Shown here piece by piece: positions 5,344 through 39,899 of a stretch of DNA of 64,000 nucleotides (positions are counted from its first letter, which is position 1; every line of letters begins with the position of its first letter). Below the pieces are notes generated by a model. It saw only the letters and a program-made list of their open reading frames with translations, did no database searches and was not told where the DNA came from. Both the position numbers and the translations under genes were made by a program. Origin of the DNA: Luteimonas sp. 9C (GTDB lineage Bacteria; Pseudomonadota; Gammaproteobacteria; Xanthomonadales; Xanthomonadaceae); the NCBI RefSeq assembly GCF_902506295.1, contig NZ_LR733312.1:891503-955502 (forward strand), read 5' to 3'.

Positions 5344-5500
5344 GACTTGAATCGAGCCGTAAAGCGAGCCGAGCACCGGAGTCTGGCGTGGCCGAAGAGC
5401 AGCCCATGTCTGAGCGCAGCGAGTTTGGGCTGCGTGCCGCGTCAGGCGAGGAGCGGAGGGCACCGATGCGGCTGTATCGCATCGGCTCGCGTCCGGCGAA
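5344..5500 (+). repeat. Dispersed repeat, copy A (inverted partner of 5709-5862)
   Basis: This arm runs from ACTTGAATCGAGCCG through AAGCGAGCCGAGCA, AGAGCAGCCCATGTCTGAGC, CGCAGCGAGTTTGGGCTGCG and GGCTGTATCGC to GCGTCCGGCGAA. The same blocks occur in the same order in the reverse complement of 5709-5862, with clustered differences between blocks. It continues into ATGGACC (5500-5506) / GGTCCAT (5522-5528), a short inverted repeat not shared with copy B. The origin of the element is unknown to me; no transposase is encoded. Confidence 0.7.
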
Positions 5501-5672
5501 TGGACCTTTTGGTTCCTTTTGGGTCCATCCAAAAGGGACTCGCACGCGCAGCGGGCGAAAGCCGTGCACTTGCTCGCGCTTCTTCGCTTGTCGCTTTGCG
5601 ACCTTGATGTTCGAAGCAAAAGATCAGTAGCAAGAGCGAAGATCAAAGACAGGGCTTCCGCGCTATCGCGCG

Positions 5673-34165: not shown

Positions 34166-34900
34166 TCAGTTCGAGGCCGGCGCCGCTGCCGCATCCGCTT
34201 CCGCAGCTGCATCGTCGCGATGGACGACGGTGTCCTTGCGGCAGTTCTCGACGTCGGTCGCGTCCATCCTTGCGTAGGGTTCGAAGGCGGGCAGCGCAGC
34301 CGCGAGCGCCTGTTGCGAGGCGAGCAGGGCCGGCAGGCGGTCGCACAGCTTGTCTGCCTCGGCTTCGATCTTCGCGCCCTCGGCTTCCATGCGCTGCTCG
34401 AACTCCGCGGACTTGCCCGACAGCGCGCTGGCGATCGCACCCTTGGCGGCTTCCGCGCCGAGCTGTGCGCCTTGGATGCCGATCGTGATGCCGGCGTCCG
34501 CGATCGCAATGATGTTGCTGCGATGCGCCAGCAGCAGCTCGCGTTGCGCGCCGTCGATCTCGATCGTCTTGCCATCGACCAGTAAATCGCCCGCCGGGCT
34601 GATCTCGGCCTTCGGTAGCCCGGACGTGCGGCTGTCGTCGCCGCCGAAGCGGAACCCGTTGATGTTCAGGCCGCTGGCACCGGTGCCGCCGATGCTGATG
34701 TTGTTCTCGGCCAGATCCCGGCGCGCGGTTTCCAGTGCGCGCCGGGTGGTGCGGGCCACGAAACCTTCCTCGGCCGGTGCTGTCGTGGCATCGCGGTCTG
34801 CGGACGCAGGCGGCGCATCGTCGCGACCACAGGCGGTCAGCGCCCCGGCGCAGGCGAGCAGCAGGACCGGGGGGCGGGCACGGGAGGGCAGGATCTTCAT
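34166..34900 (-). CDS. Putative lipoprotein, DUF2884 (YggN)-like
   Basis: Function unknown. The 244-residue protein has a lipoprotein signal with lipobox LTAC (C24), then a region like E. coli YggN/DUF2884, including LPKAEISPAGDLLVDGKTIE near residue 95 and a helical stretch with LCDRLPALLASQQALAAALP, ending in an Asp/Ala-rich tail. It is a paralogue of the protein at 35900-36568: both share LPKAEI-x-P-x-GD-x-L-x-DG, a conserved CDR(L/M)PAL block and PAF-x-PYAR. The start at 34900 is used because it begins the signal peptide. It is the last gene of the YtrA-type operon, 26 bases after the beta-solenoid gene. Confidence 0.75.
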   Translation of the reverse strand: MKILPSRARPPVLLLACAGALTACGRDDAPPASADRDATTAPAEEGFVARTTRRALETARRDLAENNISIGGTGASGLNINGFRFGGDDSRTSGLPKAEISPAGDLLVDGKTIEIDGAQRELLLAHRSNIIAIADAGITIGIQGAQLGAEAAKGAIASALSGKSAEFEQRMEAEGAKIEAEADKLCDRLPALLASQQALAAALPAFEPYARMDATDVENCRKDTVVHRDDAAAEADAAAAPASN

Positions 34901-34926
34901 GGTCGGACTCCGGATCTGTAGAGGAT

Positions 34927-35781
34927 TCAACGCCGGCTGGGCACGCTGACGGCGCCGCGCACGTCGCGGTGCGAGACCTCGCCGCTGCCCTTGGCGGCCA
35001 CTTCGAAATCGCCGCCGATCGCGCGGACATCGACATCGCCCGAGCCGATCGAGCCGACACGCACGTTGCCCTGCACGTCGCGCAGGTCGATGTCGCCCGA
35101 GCCGAGGCTGCCGATGCGGACGTCGCCGCCGGCGCCGGCGAGCTTGAAGTCGCCCGAGCCGATGCTGCCGACTTCGACGGGGCCGCGGATGCCGCGGGCC
35201 TCGACGTCGCCCGAGCCGATCGAGAGCACCTTCAGCTCACCGGCGTCTTCGACCGTGATGTCGCCCGAGCCGACCTTGGCGGTGGCGCGGCCCTGGATGC
35301 GGCGCAGTTCGGCATCGCCGGAGCCGACGTCGGCGCTCGCGGCGGACACGCCGGTCACCCAGGCATCGCCGGAACCGACGACGGTCTGGACCAGGGCGTT
35401 CGCGGGCACCTGGCCGGAAAGGTCCAGGTAGGCGTACTGGTTGCCCATCCAGCCGGTCGAATTCGACGTGCGGCGCAGGGTGACGGTCAGCGTCTCCCCC
35501 TCGCGCGCCTGCTCGAGAACCAGCGAGGCGAGCATGGCGTCGCTCGATGCGCAGGCACGACCACGCAGGGTCGCGTCGGGACGCTCGGCACCTTCGATGC
35601 GCAACCGGCTGTTGCCGATCTCGAACCGCACCGTCCGCACGCCGTCGAGCTGCAGGGCCAGATCGCGCGGCTGGCTGTGGCGGCACTGCGGGCCGTCTTC
35701 GGCCTGCGCCGCGAGCGGCCATGCGAGCGTGGCGGCAATGAGCGTGGCGAGCAGCGGACGAGCGGAAACAGCGTGCGTCAT
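34927..35781 (-). CDS. Exported GSGD-repeat beta-solenoid protein (GIN/DUF2807-like)
   Basis: A 284-residue exported protein of unknown function. A signal peptide (cut near AAQAE, about residue 27) is followed by a non-repetitive domain to about 130 and then eight regular turns, each beginning with the motif (V/I/L)GSGD at 17-19 residue intervals (the last is KGSGE). Such alternating GSGD turns are typical of right-handed beta-helix proteins of the DUF2807/DUF4097 head-GIN type, which often accompany envelope-stress or ABC/regulator genes. It lies between two DUF2884-like paralogues in the operon, suggesting a surface or periplasmic complex. No enzymatic motif is visible. Confidence 0.82.
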   Translation of the reverse strand: MTHAVSARPLLATLIAATLAWPLAAQAEDGPQCRHSQPRDLALQLDGVRTVRFEIGNSRLRIEGAERPDATLRGRACASSDAMLASLVLEQAREGETLTVTLRRTSNSTGWMGNQYAYLDLSGQVPANALVQTVVGSGDAWVTGVSAASADVGSGDAELRRIQGRATAKVGSGDITVEDAGELKVLSIGSGDVEARGIRGPVEVGSIGSGDFKLAGAGGDVRIGSLGSGDIDLRDVQGNVRVGSIGSGDVDVRAIGGDFEVAAKGSGEVSHRDVRGAVSVPSRR

Positions 35782-35899: not shown

Positions 35900-36568
35900 T
35901 CAGCGCCCGGCGAACTCGCGGCGGACCTCGTTGCGGCAGCTGTCCGCGTCCTGCGCTTCCAGGCGCGCGTAGGGGCGGAATGCCGGCAGGTCGCTCGCCA
36001 GTTGCTGCTGCGCCTCGCGCAGCGCGGGCATGCGGTCGCAGATCAGCATCACGCCGGGGCCGACGGTGTCGCGGACGGTCCGCTCGATGCGCCGCTCCAG
36101 GCTGCCGGTCATCGCGCCGACCATCAGTGAGAACACACCGCGGTCGACCGAATCCACGGCCGCCAGCGCGCTGACCTCGCCGATGTCGATGCCGGCCTTC
36201 GCGACCTCGATGACCATGCCGCGGTAGGCGAGCAACTGGCGCCGCTGGGCGCTGTCGATGGCGACGGCCTCGCCGTCGATGAGGAAATCGCCGCGCGGGG
36301 TGATCTCGGCCTTCGGCAGCGCCGGGGCCGTCTTCGCCTTGCGGTCGCGGCGCGCATCGCCATTGGCCTGCAGGCTGTGGGTCACATCGAGATTGTCGGT
36401 TTCGAGTTCGGCGCGCGCCCTGGCGAGATCGGTGCGGATGTCGCGCCTGGCATCTTCCAGATCCCGGCGGATCTCCTCGCGCACGCCGCCGGACTCCGGC
36501 GGCGCCGGCCATGCAGCCATCGGCAGACACAGGGCAAGGGCGAATGCGGTGACGGCTGCAGCGTTCAT
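35900..36568 (-). CDS. Exported DUF2884 (YggN)-like protein
   Basis: Function unknown. The 222-residue protein has an ordinary signal peptide (cleavage near AAWPA, residue 22), a charged amphipathic helical stretch rich in Arg/Asp/Glu (about 28-65), then the DUF2884-like core with ALPKAEITPRGDFLIDG near residue 83 and a C-terminal block LICDRMPALREAQQQLASDL. It is the paralogue of the lipoprotein at 34166-34900 but lacks the lipobox, so one member is probably soluble in the periplasm and the other membrane-tethered. It starts 45 bases after the ABC permease. Confidence 0.75.
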   Translation of the reverse strand: MNAAAVTAFALALCLPMAAWPAPPESGGVREEIRRDLEDARRDIRTDLARARAELETDNLDVTHSLQANGDARRDRKAKTAPALPKAEITPRGDFLIDGEAVAIDSAQRRQLLAYRGMVIEVAKAGIDIGEVSALAAVDSVDRGVFSLMVGAMTGSLERRIERTVRDTVGPGVMLICDRMPALREAQQQLASDLPAFRPYARLEAQDADSCRNEVRREFAGR

Positions 36569-36613: not shown

Positions 36614-37660
36614 TCAGCCTTCCTCGCGCCAGCGGCGCAGGCGGATGGCGATCACGATCATCACGGCGCCGGCGATGAGGCCGATCCACATCGAGGGCGC
36701 GGCGAAGTTGCTGTAGAGACCCGAGATCGAGAAGAGTTCGCTGGTCGGCAGGGCGCCGGACTGCATCAGGCTCAGATCGCGGTGGGTCACGGGCACAGTG
36801 CCCAGCAGCATCCGCGAGATCACGTTGCCCCAGAGCCAGTGACGGTCCAGACCGATCACCTGCAGCAGGCCGGTCATCGACGTCGCGACGCCCAGCGCCA
36901 GCGGAATCAGCAGTGCCCACAGGAAGGGCTTGCTCTTGGCCCAGGCCGAGCACAGCAGCAGCCAGCCGACGGTCGGGAACATCCACGCCGCGTAGACCGG
37001 AATCGCCGCCAGGAAATGACCACCCAGCAGGAAGACCGCGCCATTGCCCCAGAGCAGCGGGAATGGATTGGCCCCATGGGCGGCCGCGGCGATGCTCAGC
37101 GCGACCAGGAACGCGAACATGATGAGAATCGCGAATACGGTGGCGAACAGCGGGATCACCAGCGTCGCGGTCACGACCTTCGACAGCACCGTCGACGTGT
37201 CGGAAATCGGCAGCGATTTCCAGAACAGCACGCTGCGGTCGCGCCGATCGTCGTAGAGCGCGCCGAGACAGTAGAAGAACGCCACGAAGATCATCACCAG
37301 GAACGGCCAGGTCGCGGACAGGGCCAGGGTGTAGGTGAGGCCCTCCGACAGCTGGTAGAGATCGTCACTGGTCAGCTGCTGGGCGAGCGTGCCCAGATCC
37401 AGACCGTTGATGGTCACGCCGTTGTGCTGGACCAGGTTGCCCTCGGCGACCGCCTTGTGGGCGAACGCGATGCCGGCGATCAGCAGGCCGACCGACAGCA
37501 GCAGCGACACGCCGCCCGCGATCATCGGCGCCCAGAAGATGCCACCGCGGTGCTCCCAGTATTCGCGCCGCAGCAGCAGGCGGAAACGACGGGTCGGATG
37601 GGTGGGGGCGAACGTCCGGGACGGCACCGGAGTGTCCACGGATTCGGCGGCGGCATTCAT
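36614..37660 (-). CDS. ABC transporter permease of a YtrA-regulated system
   Basis: A 348-residue integral membrane protein with about six hydrophobic segments (around residues 43-68, 112-140, 162-195, 200-235, 245-270 and 323-340) and a large extracytoplasmic loop after the first. It resembles the ABC-2-type permeases encoded next to YtrA-family regulators. The motif DDRRDRSVLFWKSLPISDT in the first cytoplasmic loop is characteristic of this group. It pairs with the ATPase upstream, whose stop overlaps its ATG by four bases. Substrate unknown; related systems respond to cell-envelope antibiotics. Confidence 0.85.
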   Translation of the reverse strand: MNAAAESVDTPVPSRTFAPTHPTRRFRLLLRREYWEHRGGIFWAPMIAGGVSLLLSVGLLIAGIAFAHKAVAEGNLVQHNGVTINGLDLGTLAQQLTSDDLYQLSEGLTYTLALSATWPFLVMIFVAFFYCLGALYDDRRDRSVLFWKSLPISDTSTVLSKVVTATLVIPLFATVFAILIMFAFLVALSIAAAAHGANPFPLLWGNGAVFLLGGHFLAAIPVYAAWMFPTVGWLLLCSAWAKSKPFLWALLIPLALGVATSMTGLLQVIGLDRHWLWGNVISRMLLGTVPVTHRDLSLMQSGALPTSELFSISGLYSNFAAPSMWIGLIAGAVMIVIAIRLRRWREEG

Positions 37661-38532
37661 GCGTAGGCTCCTTTCATCGTGGCCACGAACAGGTCGGCCA
37701 GGCCCGGGGTGCGGGTTTCGCCGTATGTCGACAGGGTGGAAACGGGCACGTTGTCGAACAGCATCACGGTCTTGCCGAAGGGCAGGGCGCGCTCGTCGAT
37801 CGGGCGATGGGCGCGGGCAGCGTCGAGGTGTTCGGCGTTGACCAGCACTTCGACGAAGCGCTCGCCGACATCGTCCATCGGCGCGTCCAGCACGATCCTG
37901 CCGTTCTGGATGAACAGCACGTCGGTGAGGATGTGCTCGATCTCCTCGACCTGATGCGTGGTGACGATGATCGTCTTCTGCTCGTCGAAGTAATCCTCCA
38001 GCAGGCGCTGGTAGAACTGCTTGCGGTACAGGATGTCGAGGCCCAGCGTCGGCTCGTCGAGCACCAGCAGCTTGGCGTCGATCGCCATCACCAGCGCCAG
38101 GTGCAGCTGCACGATCATGCCCTTGGACATTTCCCGCACGCGCTGTTTCGGACCGAGCTTGGTGTTAGCGAGGAAGCGTTCGCAGCGGGCGCGGTCGAAG
38201 CGGGGATGCACGCCCTCGACGAAATCGATCGCGTCGCGCACCCGCATCCAGCGCGGCAGCACCGCGACGTCGGCGATGAAGCAGACATCGTTCATCAGCG
38301 CATCGCGTTCGGTGCGCGGGTCGCGTCCGAGCACCGACATCTCGCCGTCGAACCGGATCAGTCCGAGCAGCGCCTTCAGTGCGGTCGTCTTGCCGGCGCC
38401 ATTGGGACCGATCAGGCCGACGATCCGGCCGGCGGGAATCTGGAAGCTGGTGCCGTCCAGCGCCCGCGCGCCCTTGTAGGTCTTGGTGAGGTTGCGCGCG
38501 GTGATCACGGGCGTATCGAGGACGGCGTTCAT
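37657..38532 (-). CDS. ABC transporter ATP-binding protein of a YtrA-regulated system
   Basis: A 291-residue ATPase with Walker A GPNGAGKTT (42-50), Walker B KLLVLDEPTLGLD and switch histidine in VTTHQVEEIEH. The signature motif is the degenerate MSKGM rather than LSGGQ, as in YtrB-like ATPases. The start at 38532 overlaps the regulator stop (ATGA), as its own stop overlaps the permease start, so regulator, ATPase and permease form a translationally coupled trio. A longer in-frame start at 38886 would run through the regulator gene and is rejected. Confidence 0.9.
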   Translation of the reverse strand: MNAVLDTPVITARNLTKTYKGARALDGTSFQIPAGRIVGLIGPNGAGKTTALKALLGLIRFDGEMSVLGRDPRTERDALMNDVCFIADVAVLPRWMRVRDAIDFVEGVHPRFDRARCERFLANTKLGPKQRVREMSKGMIVQLHLALVMAIDAKLLVLDEPTLGLDILYRKQFYQRLLEDYFDEQKTIIVTTHQVEEIEHILTDVLFIQNGRIVLDAPMDDVGERFVEVLVNAEHLDAARAHRPIDERALPFGKTVMLFDNVPVSTLSTYGETRTPGLADLFVATMKGAYA

Positions 38533-38900
38533 TCGTTGGCTCCATTGCCGATGGACTGCAGCAGGTCCCGGGTCGACAGCCCCAGGCGTTCGATCCGTTC
38601 CACCACCTGCGGCCATTCGTCGGTCAGGAACCGCTCGCGTTCGCTGCTGCGCAGCTTCTTCGAGGCTTCCTCGGTGACGAACATGCCCAGGCCGCGGCGC
38701 TTCTCCACCAGCGCCTCGTCGGCGAGCTCCTGGTAGGCGCGCGAGACGGTGATCGGGTTGAGCTGGTAGTCGGCGGCCACCTGGCGCACCGAGGGCAGCG
38801 CATCGCCGGGCTTCAGGACGCCGTCGAGCATCATGGCGATGACGCGTTCCTTGAGCTGGCGGTAGATGGGAGCGCCGTCGCTCCATTCGATATTGGCCAT
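38529..38900 (-). CDS. ytrA: GntR-family regulator, YtrA subfamily
   Basis: A 123-residue repressor with an N-terminal winged helix (PIYRQLKERVIAMMLDGVL, then PGDALPSVRQVAADYQLNPI) and a very short two-helix C-terminal part. That size and shape define the YtrA subfamily, which lacks a large ligand domain. GGAG lies 8 bases before the ATG at 38900, overlapping the end of the small gene upstream. It should bind the palindrome at 39203-39226, which fits the GGTG-N16-CACC site I recall for Xanthomonas YtrA/HpaR1 proteins. In Xanthomonas, relatives influence virulence and envelope functions; whether that applies here is unknown. Confidence 0.9.
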   Translation of the reverse strand: MANIEWSDGAPIYRQLKERVIAMMLDGVLKPGDALPSVRQVAADYQLNPITVSRAYQELADEALVEKRRGLGMFVTEEASKKLRSSERERFLTDEWPQVVERIERLGLSTRDLLQSIGNGANE

Positions 38901-38904
38901 GGCC

Positions 38905-39177
38905 TCAGCTCCTTCCACCAGCGCCCCGCGCGAACGAGAAGTACGGCAGGGCGAAACCGCTGCGCGCACGGCGTGCGCGGGGGCGCGGGGTCTCCGCGTC
39001 GATGTCGGTCGCGGCCGCGGCCCGCTCGGCCTGTGCGCGCGCCTTGGCGGCGACGGACGCGGGCGGCGTCGCGACCTCACCGGCCGACGGCGCCGGTCCG
39101 GCGAACAGCAGGCCCGCCGAGAGCAACAGGGCGAGGGCGGTGCATGCGATGATCGGGGTGTGGAGCCTGCGGTTCAT
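38905..39177 (-). CDS. Small exported or membrane-anchored protein, first gene of the YtrA operon
   Basis: A 90-residue protein I do not recognise. It has a classical N-terminal signal or anchor (IIACTALALLLSAGLLFAGP, residues 9-28), then an Ala/Pro-rich and strongly basic stretch (RPRARRARSGF) and a Gly/Ser end. It begins about 30 bases after the predicted transcription start and ends 4 bases before the YtrA-like gene, whose ribosome binding site sits in its last codons. That makes it a genuine operon member rather than a chance frame. A small sensor or leader peptide role is conceivable but unsupported. Confidence 0.65.
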   Translation of the reverse strand: MNRRLHTPIIACTALALLLSAGLLFAGPAPSAGEVATPPASVAAKARAQAERAAAATDIDAETPRPRARRARSGFALPYFSFARGAGGRS

Positions 39178-39202
39178 GAAGACCGTCCTGCTCTAGTGGG
39201 TA

Positions 39203-39226
39203 GGTGTTGTAGGTGACTATAACACC
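39203..39226 (-). promoter_or_regulatory. GntR/YtrA operator palindrome overlapping the -10
   Basis: GGTGTTGTAG (39203-39212), spacer GTGA, CTATAACACC (39217-39226): half-sites identical at 9 of 10 positions. The outermost bases are GGTG and CACC separated by exactly 16 bases, the recalled YtrA-type site. The palindrome covers the -10 and start region of the operon, ideal for autorepression. Confidence 0.82.
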
Positions 39227-39243
39227 ACCGCAGCAGGTGTCAA
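39216..39243 (-). promoter_or_regulatory. Near-consensus sigma-70 promoter of the YtrA operon
   Basis: On the minus strand TTGACA (39238-39243), a 16-bp spacer and TATAGT (39216-39221). This is the best -35/-10 pair in the window; predicted start near 39208, about 30 bases before the small gene at 39177. Confidence 0.85.
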
Positions 39244-39308
39244 CGCGCCACGCAAATATTTCTACCCAACTGATGGCACGGGTGACCGCCCGTGCAGGAG
39301 AGCCGAAC

Positions 39309-39899
39309 ATGCGTCGCAATCGGTGGTTCCAGCGCATGGCGCTGATGGCGGGACTCGCGCTGGTGGCCGGTGCGGCCTGGGCGCAGGCGCCCGCGGCGTC
39401 GGGTGGCGTGCTCGATCACCAGTTCCGGCAGCTCGCGGTGCGCGAGACGGTGGACCTGCGCGCCACCTACGGCGGCGACGTGGTGCTGATCGTCAACACC
39501 GCCAGCAAGTGCGGCTTCACCCCGCAATACGAGGCCCTCGAGGCCATGCACGCGCGCCTGCGTCCGCGCGGGTTCGCGGTGCTGGGCTTTCCGTCGGGCG
39601 ACTTCCGGGAGCAGGAATTCGAGGACGAGGCGGCCATCCAGGAGTTCTGCACGCTGACCTATGGCGTGAAGTTCCCGATGTTCCAGAAGGTGCACGTGAC
39701 CGGCCCCGAGGCCACCCCCATGTACAAGCAGCTGGCGGCCGCCACCGGCCAGGCGCCGCAGTGGAATTTCCACAAGTATCTGGTCGGCCGGGATGGCCGG
39801 GTGCTGGGCCAGTGGGGCAGCCGCACCAAGCCCGACGATCCGGAGATCCTGGCGGCGATCGAGCGGGCACTCGCCGCGCCGAGGCCGGCCGCGCGCTGA
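39309..39899 (+). CDS. Exported glutathione-peroxidase-family protein
   Basis: A thiol peroxidase of the Gpx/BtuE family directed to the periplasm. The 196-residue protein has a signal peptide (cleavage after AAWAQA, about residue 27), the peroxidatic cysteine C68 in NTASKCGFTPQY, a possible resolving cysteine C114 in EFCTLTYGVKFPMF, and the Trp-Asn pair W152-N153. The usual FPCNQF block that supplies the catalytic glutamine reads FPSGDF here (D98), a known-looking variant that could shift activity. AGGAG lies 9 bases before the ATG and is immediately preceded by a 7-bp hairpin (39276-39295). It is divergent from the YtrA operon and may share its operator. Confidence 0.85.
   Translation: MRRNRWFQRMALMAGLALVAGAAWAQAPAASGGVLDHQFRQLAVRETVDLRATYGGDVVLIVNTASKCGFTPQYEALEAMHARLRPRGFAVLGFPSGDFREQEFEDEAAIQEFCTLTYGVKFPMFQKVHVTGPEATPMYKQLAAATGQAPQWNFHKYLVGRDGRVLGQWGSRTKPDDPEILAAIERALAAPRPAAR

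Follow-up and report, generated by a model that had tools for sequence, protein, structure and literature searches.

A predicted operator of a YtrA-type GntR regulator on the promoter of its own operon in Luteimonas, and candidate sites ahead of efflux and small-peptide genes

Binding sites of regulators of the YtrA subfamily of the GntR family are described in PMC4494728 as long palindromes in which GT and AC stand distant from the centre. In Xanthomonas citri, the motif GGTG-N16-CACC has been reported for YtrA (Zhou et al., 2017, as given in the citing paper PMC6746942), and in Xanthomonas campestris the footprinted HpaR1 site of the gumB promoter is reported to consist of inverted repeats linked by 1 bp (PMC4730234); in its passage on these proteins, a review treats HpaR1 and YtrA as one regulator. 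For Bacillus subtilis, Salzberg et al. (2011) state in their title that YtrA responds to cell wall antibiotics.

The analyses presented here point to a site of the X. citri kind in Luteimonas sp. 9C. A 24-bp palindrome, GGTGTTGTAGGTGACTATAACACC, lies at 39203-39226 of the window (the whole stretch of 64,000 nt that was analysed); its two arms of 10 bases are 9/10 complementary around a 4-base centre, and its GGTG and CACC stand exactly 16 bases apart, as in the X. citri YtrA motif. The window sequence bears out both the symmetry and the spacing given in a preliminary description of this DNA, which had ascribed the site to 'Xanthomonas YtrA/HpaR1' regulators; that ascription holds for the X. 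citri motif and fails for HpaR1, since the gumB site is linked by 1 bp and the arms here are 4 bp apart, two published sites having been merged. We suggest, from sequence comparison, that the palindrome very probably serves as operator for the YtrA-type repressor encoded next to it and that the same protein probably represses an MFP-RND efflux unit and, in part of the family, small-peptide units as well.

The ytrA operon, its promoter and its divergent neighbour

The features of the locus, in window coordinates, are as follows.

39309..39899, plus strand: glutathione peroxidase gene, divergent (PF00255; divergent in 65/71 full-length loci)
39264..39278, plus strand: second recurring element, ACCCAACTGATGGCA, between the operator and the peroxidase gene (by eye, 17 relatives)
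39238..39243, minus strand: -35 box TTGACA of the ytrA operon promoter (promoter scan)
39216..39221, minus strand: -10 box TATAGT, wholly within the operator (promoter scan)
39203..39226, no strand: probable operator palindrome, GGTGTTGTAG-GTGA-CTATAACACC (sequence, motif counts, kept in 77/77 ytrA loci)
38905..39177, minus strand: leader ORF, 90 aa, with a hydrophobic N-terminus and a PYFSF motif conserved at the C-terminus; probably the operon's first gene (ORF and relatives)
38529..38900, minus strand: YtrA-type GntR regulator, 123 aa (PF00392, E 1.7e-14; PDB 3tqn, E 9e-33)
37657..38532, minus strand: ABC transporter ATPase (PF00005; behind ytrA on the same strand in 71/71 full-length loci)
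36614..37660, minus strand: probable membrane subunit of the ABC-2 type (PF13346 match, weak and under the curated cut-off; in 71/71 loci)
35900..36568, minus strand: uncharacterised ORF, 222 aa (no Pfam or NCBIfam match; in 67/71 loci)
34927..35781, minus strand: DUF4097/DUF2807 protein (domain match; in 61/71 loci)
34166..34930, minus strand: DUF2884 protein (domain match; in 69/71 loci)

The regulator carries the GntR winged helix-turn-helix (PF00392, residues 13-75, 53.7 bits against a cut-off of 27), and the 48 residues that follow this domain agree with the short C-terminal part of about 50 residues that marks the YtrA subfamily; its best match among solved structures, 3tqn, is a chain of 113 residues. 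Two further marks of the subfamily are present, namely ABC genes beside the regulator (the genes for the ATPase and the membrane subunit share its strand in 71/71 full-length loci) and a long palindrome whose GT and AC lie well away from its centre (the 24-bp site, at 77/77 loci). The predicted transcript comprises the leader ORF, the regulator, the ABC ATPase and the membrane subunit, and possibly the three further ORFs. The preliminary description had named a 'YtrA operon' behind the promoter; the predicted operon has the small leader ORF, and not ytrA, as its probable first gene. This leader ORF has no match in Pfam or NCBIfam, is 73-174 aa long across 77 loci, with a hydrophobic start as judged by eye, and ends in [MLV]P[YF]FSF in 75 of the 77.

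Transcription of the operon would be directed by a predicted minus-strand sigma-70 promoter with TTGACA at 39243-39238, a 16-base spacer and TATAGT at 39221-39216, which agrees with the consensus at 11/12 positions and has a TG preceding the -10 box; the promoter scan found this one promoter, against a mean of 0.0 in 50 shuffles. The same arrangement recurs among relatives, TATAGT lying inside the operator in 77/77 ytrA loci and TTGAC within the 45 bases before it in 61/77. Transcription starting about 7 bases past the -10 would also begin within the palindrome, so that of the earlier claim that the palindrome covers both TATAGT and the start point, the former is borne out by the promoter scan and the latter is predicted from the position of the -10. 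The start codon of the leader ORF (ATG from 39177) is 25 bases from the palindrome.

Strong orthologues of ytrA (E 1e-48 or better) were found in 114/119 genomes of the family, and any match at 1e-3 in 117/119; the closest relatives of the locus are Luteimonas. Of 29 relatives fetched, 28 have the operator with no more than 1 mismatch, the exception being a sequence (L017) that begins 159 bases before the ytrA match. Among 80 ytrA loci fetched from named genomes, of 261 confirmed, three (L152, L165 and L180) end at a contig end, and all 77 with enough upstream DNA carry the operator, 75 with 0 mismatches and 2 with 1, the best match of the reversed-pattern control having 5-8. In 76 of these 77 loci the operator lies 20-27 bp from the first leader ATG, and in one it lies 4 bp away. 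Conservation ahead of orthologous operons, the lack of which had been named at the outset as grounds for giving up the operator, was thus found in both samples. The position of the site, the GntR domain, the ABC operon and this conservation together support the claim that a YtrA-type operator sits on the -10 of the ytrA operon, with direct autorepression as the likely consequence.

The peroxidase had been placed about 85 bases away, a distance taken to leave room for joint control; the distance is right, its ATG (39309) being 82 bases from the palindrome. That one operator should govern the ytrA operon and the divergent peroxidase alike accords with the arrangement of the genes, the peroxidase being divergent in 65/71 loci and 30-108 bp from the operator in 60/71 measurable loci, and with a published statement that in GntR divergons a single site usually controls the two operons together. 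We nevertheless consider joint control unlikely, and the earlier claim to be unsupported, since the operator keeps its position relative to the leader and not to the peroxidase (316-355 bp in 11/71 loci, within an overall range of 30-355 bp), 6/71 full-length loci have no peroxidase gene, the promoter scan of 38850-39350 found no plus-strand promoter facing it, and divergent regulation is described as very rare in YtrA regulons (PMC4494728). The element ACCCAACTGATGGCA is clear in Luteimonas and Xanthomonas and weak in L134 and L160.

Further sites ahead of efflux and peptide genes

The second-best site of the Luteimonas genome, GGTGATATACCTTGCTACAACACC (C2:741530-741553), stands 20 bp ahead of the start codon (ATG) of an MFP adaptor gene, which is followed by an RND permease gene. 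Sites with at most 2 mismatches occur in 114/118 genomes of the family, most often exactly two per genome, against a reversed-pattern hit in 1/118. Thirty-nine further sites were fetched, taken from those among the sites listed for the family that looked unlike ytrA sites, and an MFP-RND operon lies behind 30 of them; the others precede ytrA (1), GYGxSSGY peptides (2), small or exported-looking proteins (3) or another ABC ATPase (2), and one (L108) is in an apparent coding region. The two ABC ATPase operons (L107 and L109, in G108 and G014) encode ATPases with 31-32% identity to that of the ytrA operon, and the sites ahead of them are similar to the others. The MFP gene itself was found in 116/118 genomes, and at the best 30 MFP loci, which are not a random sample, the site is present in 30/30, with 1 mismatch in 13, 2 in 13, 3 in 2 and 4 in 2, against 6-9 in the reversed control; S. 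maltophilia D457, L202 and L215 have a weak efflux site, with 4 mismatches. The pump does not look like SmeGH, the D457 orthologue lying at 2,018,713 and the smeH mutations near 3,061,160, if these coordinates share one record. The pump may already be a target in the X. citri YtrA paper (Zhou et al., 2017).

The third site of the Luteimonas genome, GGTGTGTTGGTAGACTACAACACC (C2:2580889-2580912), precedes genes for three short GYGxSSxY peptides and a more distant fourth. The preliminary description had dealt with the ytrA operon and the divergent peroxidase gene; its ytrA operator stands, and the sites at the MFP-RND operon and the peptide genes had been missed. Peptides of this type (L037 at G000:C2:2580889; L092, L101 and L271-L300) end in FRxA and occur singly or several in tandem, and have no Pfam or NCBIfam name; an FRxA tail also ends a DUF1232 protein in L092.

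A PaaI-type thioesterase gene adjoins the peptides and was found in 108/118 genomes. At the best 30 PaaI loci, again chosen by gene match and not at random, the site is present with at most 3 mismatches in 20, with 4 in 1 and with 5 in 2. One or more peptides accompany each of the 22 PaaI loci with a convincing site, and the other 8 comprise 3 with a peptide and no site and 5 with neither; the locus with 4 mismatches (L250) has no peptide. A profile built from 16 peptides found matches in 61/79 genomes and none in several genera of Xanthomonadaceae, and 29 of its best 30 loci (a selection of the same kind, with L295 as the exception) carry the site at up to 4 mismatches, against 6-8 in the reversed control. 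In the peptide site one arm invariably departs from the symmetry, and in most cases the site has 3 mismatches. As a YtrA target the peptide genes may be new. A text search of the literature, of a kind that cannot show absence from print, returned no mention of the peptide motifs or of MPYFSFA, and a further search returned nothing on YtrA in Xanthomonadaceae among the papers that it listed.

The three classes of promoter differ upstream of the operator. Class B (efflux) promoters with a derived site have a ATGACCTTCGGCGCATGG-like sequence there (for example, in L038 near 5500-5520), which a loose pattern recovers in 43/59 distinct class B sequences, 10 with TTGACA or CTTGAC close by; these sequences include loci chosen for their site, and the count is no measure of frequency. 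Class C (peptide) promoters have a GTGACTTCCGGCACATGG-like sequence in this place, and class A (ytrA) promoters have no ATGACCTTCGGCGCATGG-like upstream element. The idea of a wider regulon marked by the element of classes B and C was set aside; sites of the ATGACYTYYGGCRCATGG type, at 1 mismatch, occur in 13/21 relatives (0-3 per genome), the reversed controls giving 4/21, and the Luteimonas genome has an exact copy at C2:347675. The element shared by classes B and C is perhaps the site of a second regulator.

Sites and regulator were also compared across the order, in the same 299 genomes, with the site called at no more than 2 mismatches and ytrA at E 1e-30. The site was found in 257/299 genomes and ytrA in 288/299; sites occur in 254 of the 288 genomes with ytrA and in 3 of the 11 without it (Fisher p 9.7e-6, uncorrected for kinship). 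One genome of genus g78 (G368) has neither ytrA nor site, while the other listed members of that genus have both. The three genomes with a site and no ytrA match (G220, G277 and G282) are each assemblies of more than 100 contigs. The 34/288 ytrA genomes that have no site at 2 mismatches include many of family f9 (genus g62), and so the site is changed or unneeded there. One site per genome is the rule in most members of family f12, from which we infer that the regulon may have been widened later.

It is formally conceivable that YtrA binds the ytrA operon alone and that a different regulator, with a motif like that of YtrA, uses the efflux and peptide sites. Most regulons of the YtrA subfamily are described as a single operon (PMC4494728), classes B and C share the ATGACCTTCGGCGCATGG-like element that class A does not have, and class C is asymmetric. 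We regard this as quite improbable, given that most members of all three classes have GGTGT-N14-ACACC in common, likewise placed near the start, that most genomes of the family have just two extended sites, with 30/39 of the non-ytrA ones fetched at the efflux operon, and that genomes without ytrA are mostly without any site.

Predicted regulation and the chance level of the palindrome

Considering YtrA as the common repressor, we propose that a YtrA dimer on GGTGT-N14-ACACC would cover the -10 and the start region of the operon of leader, ytrA and ABC genes, and that the bound protein would block RNA polymerase, such that the operon represses itself. Repression is suggested by the position of the operator on the -10 and start together with the reported autorepression by HpaR1. 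Release of the repressor would be brought about by a signal, probably membrane or envelope stress or an antimicrobial compound, and YtrA would probably also repress the MFP-RND operon and, in part of the family, the GYGxSSGY peptide genes through variants of the site. An activating or dual role of YtrA at 39203-39226 has parallels in HpaR1, reported to activate the gumB promoter, and in the GntR regulator of an Acinetobacter ABC operon, described as an activator (PMC13104710); considering that a site on the -10 normally blocks polymerase and that HpaR1 is reported to autorepress, we find such a role very improbable indeed.

The bare motif and the symmetry of the palindrome were set against chance. 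GGTG-N16-CACC occurs once in the window, against 1.17 expected, and the genome scan with it that had been proposed at the outset gave 98 occurrences per strand against 78 of the reversed pattern, which is near background, so a longer palindrome is needed. The window has 18 inverted repeats that match at 9/10 or better around a gap of 4 bases (first-order Markov mean 8.2, maximum 14). Only the one at 39203-39226 has GGTG/CACC ends, and no repeat in 40 simulations had them; symmetry by itself is not decisive as to whether the palindrome is non-random. With the extended pattern GGTGTTRTA-N6-TAYAACACC (at most 3 mismatches) the window gave one site and 100 shuffles gave none, and a slightly stricter extended palindrome (at most 3 mismatches) gave 3 genome sites and 0 reversed. 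Since these extended patterns were devised after the site had been seen, from the site and its relatives, the case against chance leans on conservation. A chance inverted repeat, for which the 18 repeats of equal symmetry and the background level of the bare motif might speak, is refuted by the retention of the palindrome in 77/77 ytrA loci and has practically no standing as an explanation. The palindrome is real, and probably a functional operator of a known kind.

A single predicted operator is in this way extended to a candidate regulon across a family that includes Luteimonas, Lysobacter, Xanthomonas and Stenotrophomonas, in which an ABC operon, an RND pump and a family of conserved small peptides are tied together by a single motif, in contrast to YtrA regulons described as mostly single operons. 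More tentatively, we envisage a compact three-part regulon for envelope defence, made up of the operon of leader and ABC genes, the MFP-RND pump and the tandem GYGxSSGY peptides, in which the peptides and the PYFSF leader might serve as small effectors or sensors and a second input might reach the RND and peptide promoters through ATGACYTYYGGCRCATGG. Should YtrA respond to antibiotics, as is stated in the title of the work on Bacillus, its connection with an RND pump would bear on intrinsic tolerance.

Comparison with known systems

The YtrASa protein of Sulfolobus acidocaldarius is reported as an autorepressor with a membrane protein as its second target and a site over the transcription start, and differs from the system proposed here in its 14-bp core site and archaeal promoter (PMC6746942). 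YtrA of B. subtilis, a short repressor of the GntR family, resembles the proposed Luteimonas repressor in having a long dyad site; the repeat elements of the B. subtilis site are reported to be 13 bp apart (PMC4730234). HpaR1 of X. campestris, a member of the YtrA subfamily of the GntR family, is reported to be an autorepressor (PMC4730234), as is proposed for the Luteimonas YtrA, and to activate at gumB. The YtrA of X. citri, known here through citing papers, has the same outer tetrads and spacing in its motif as the Luteimonas operator, and Xanthomonas hortorum and X. arboricola, which have orthologues at about 85% identity, both carry the same operator. The Luteimonas genome has the site also before GYGxSSGY peptide genes.
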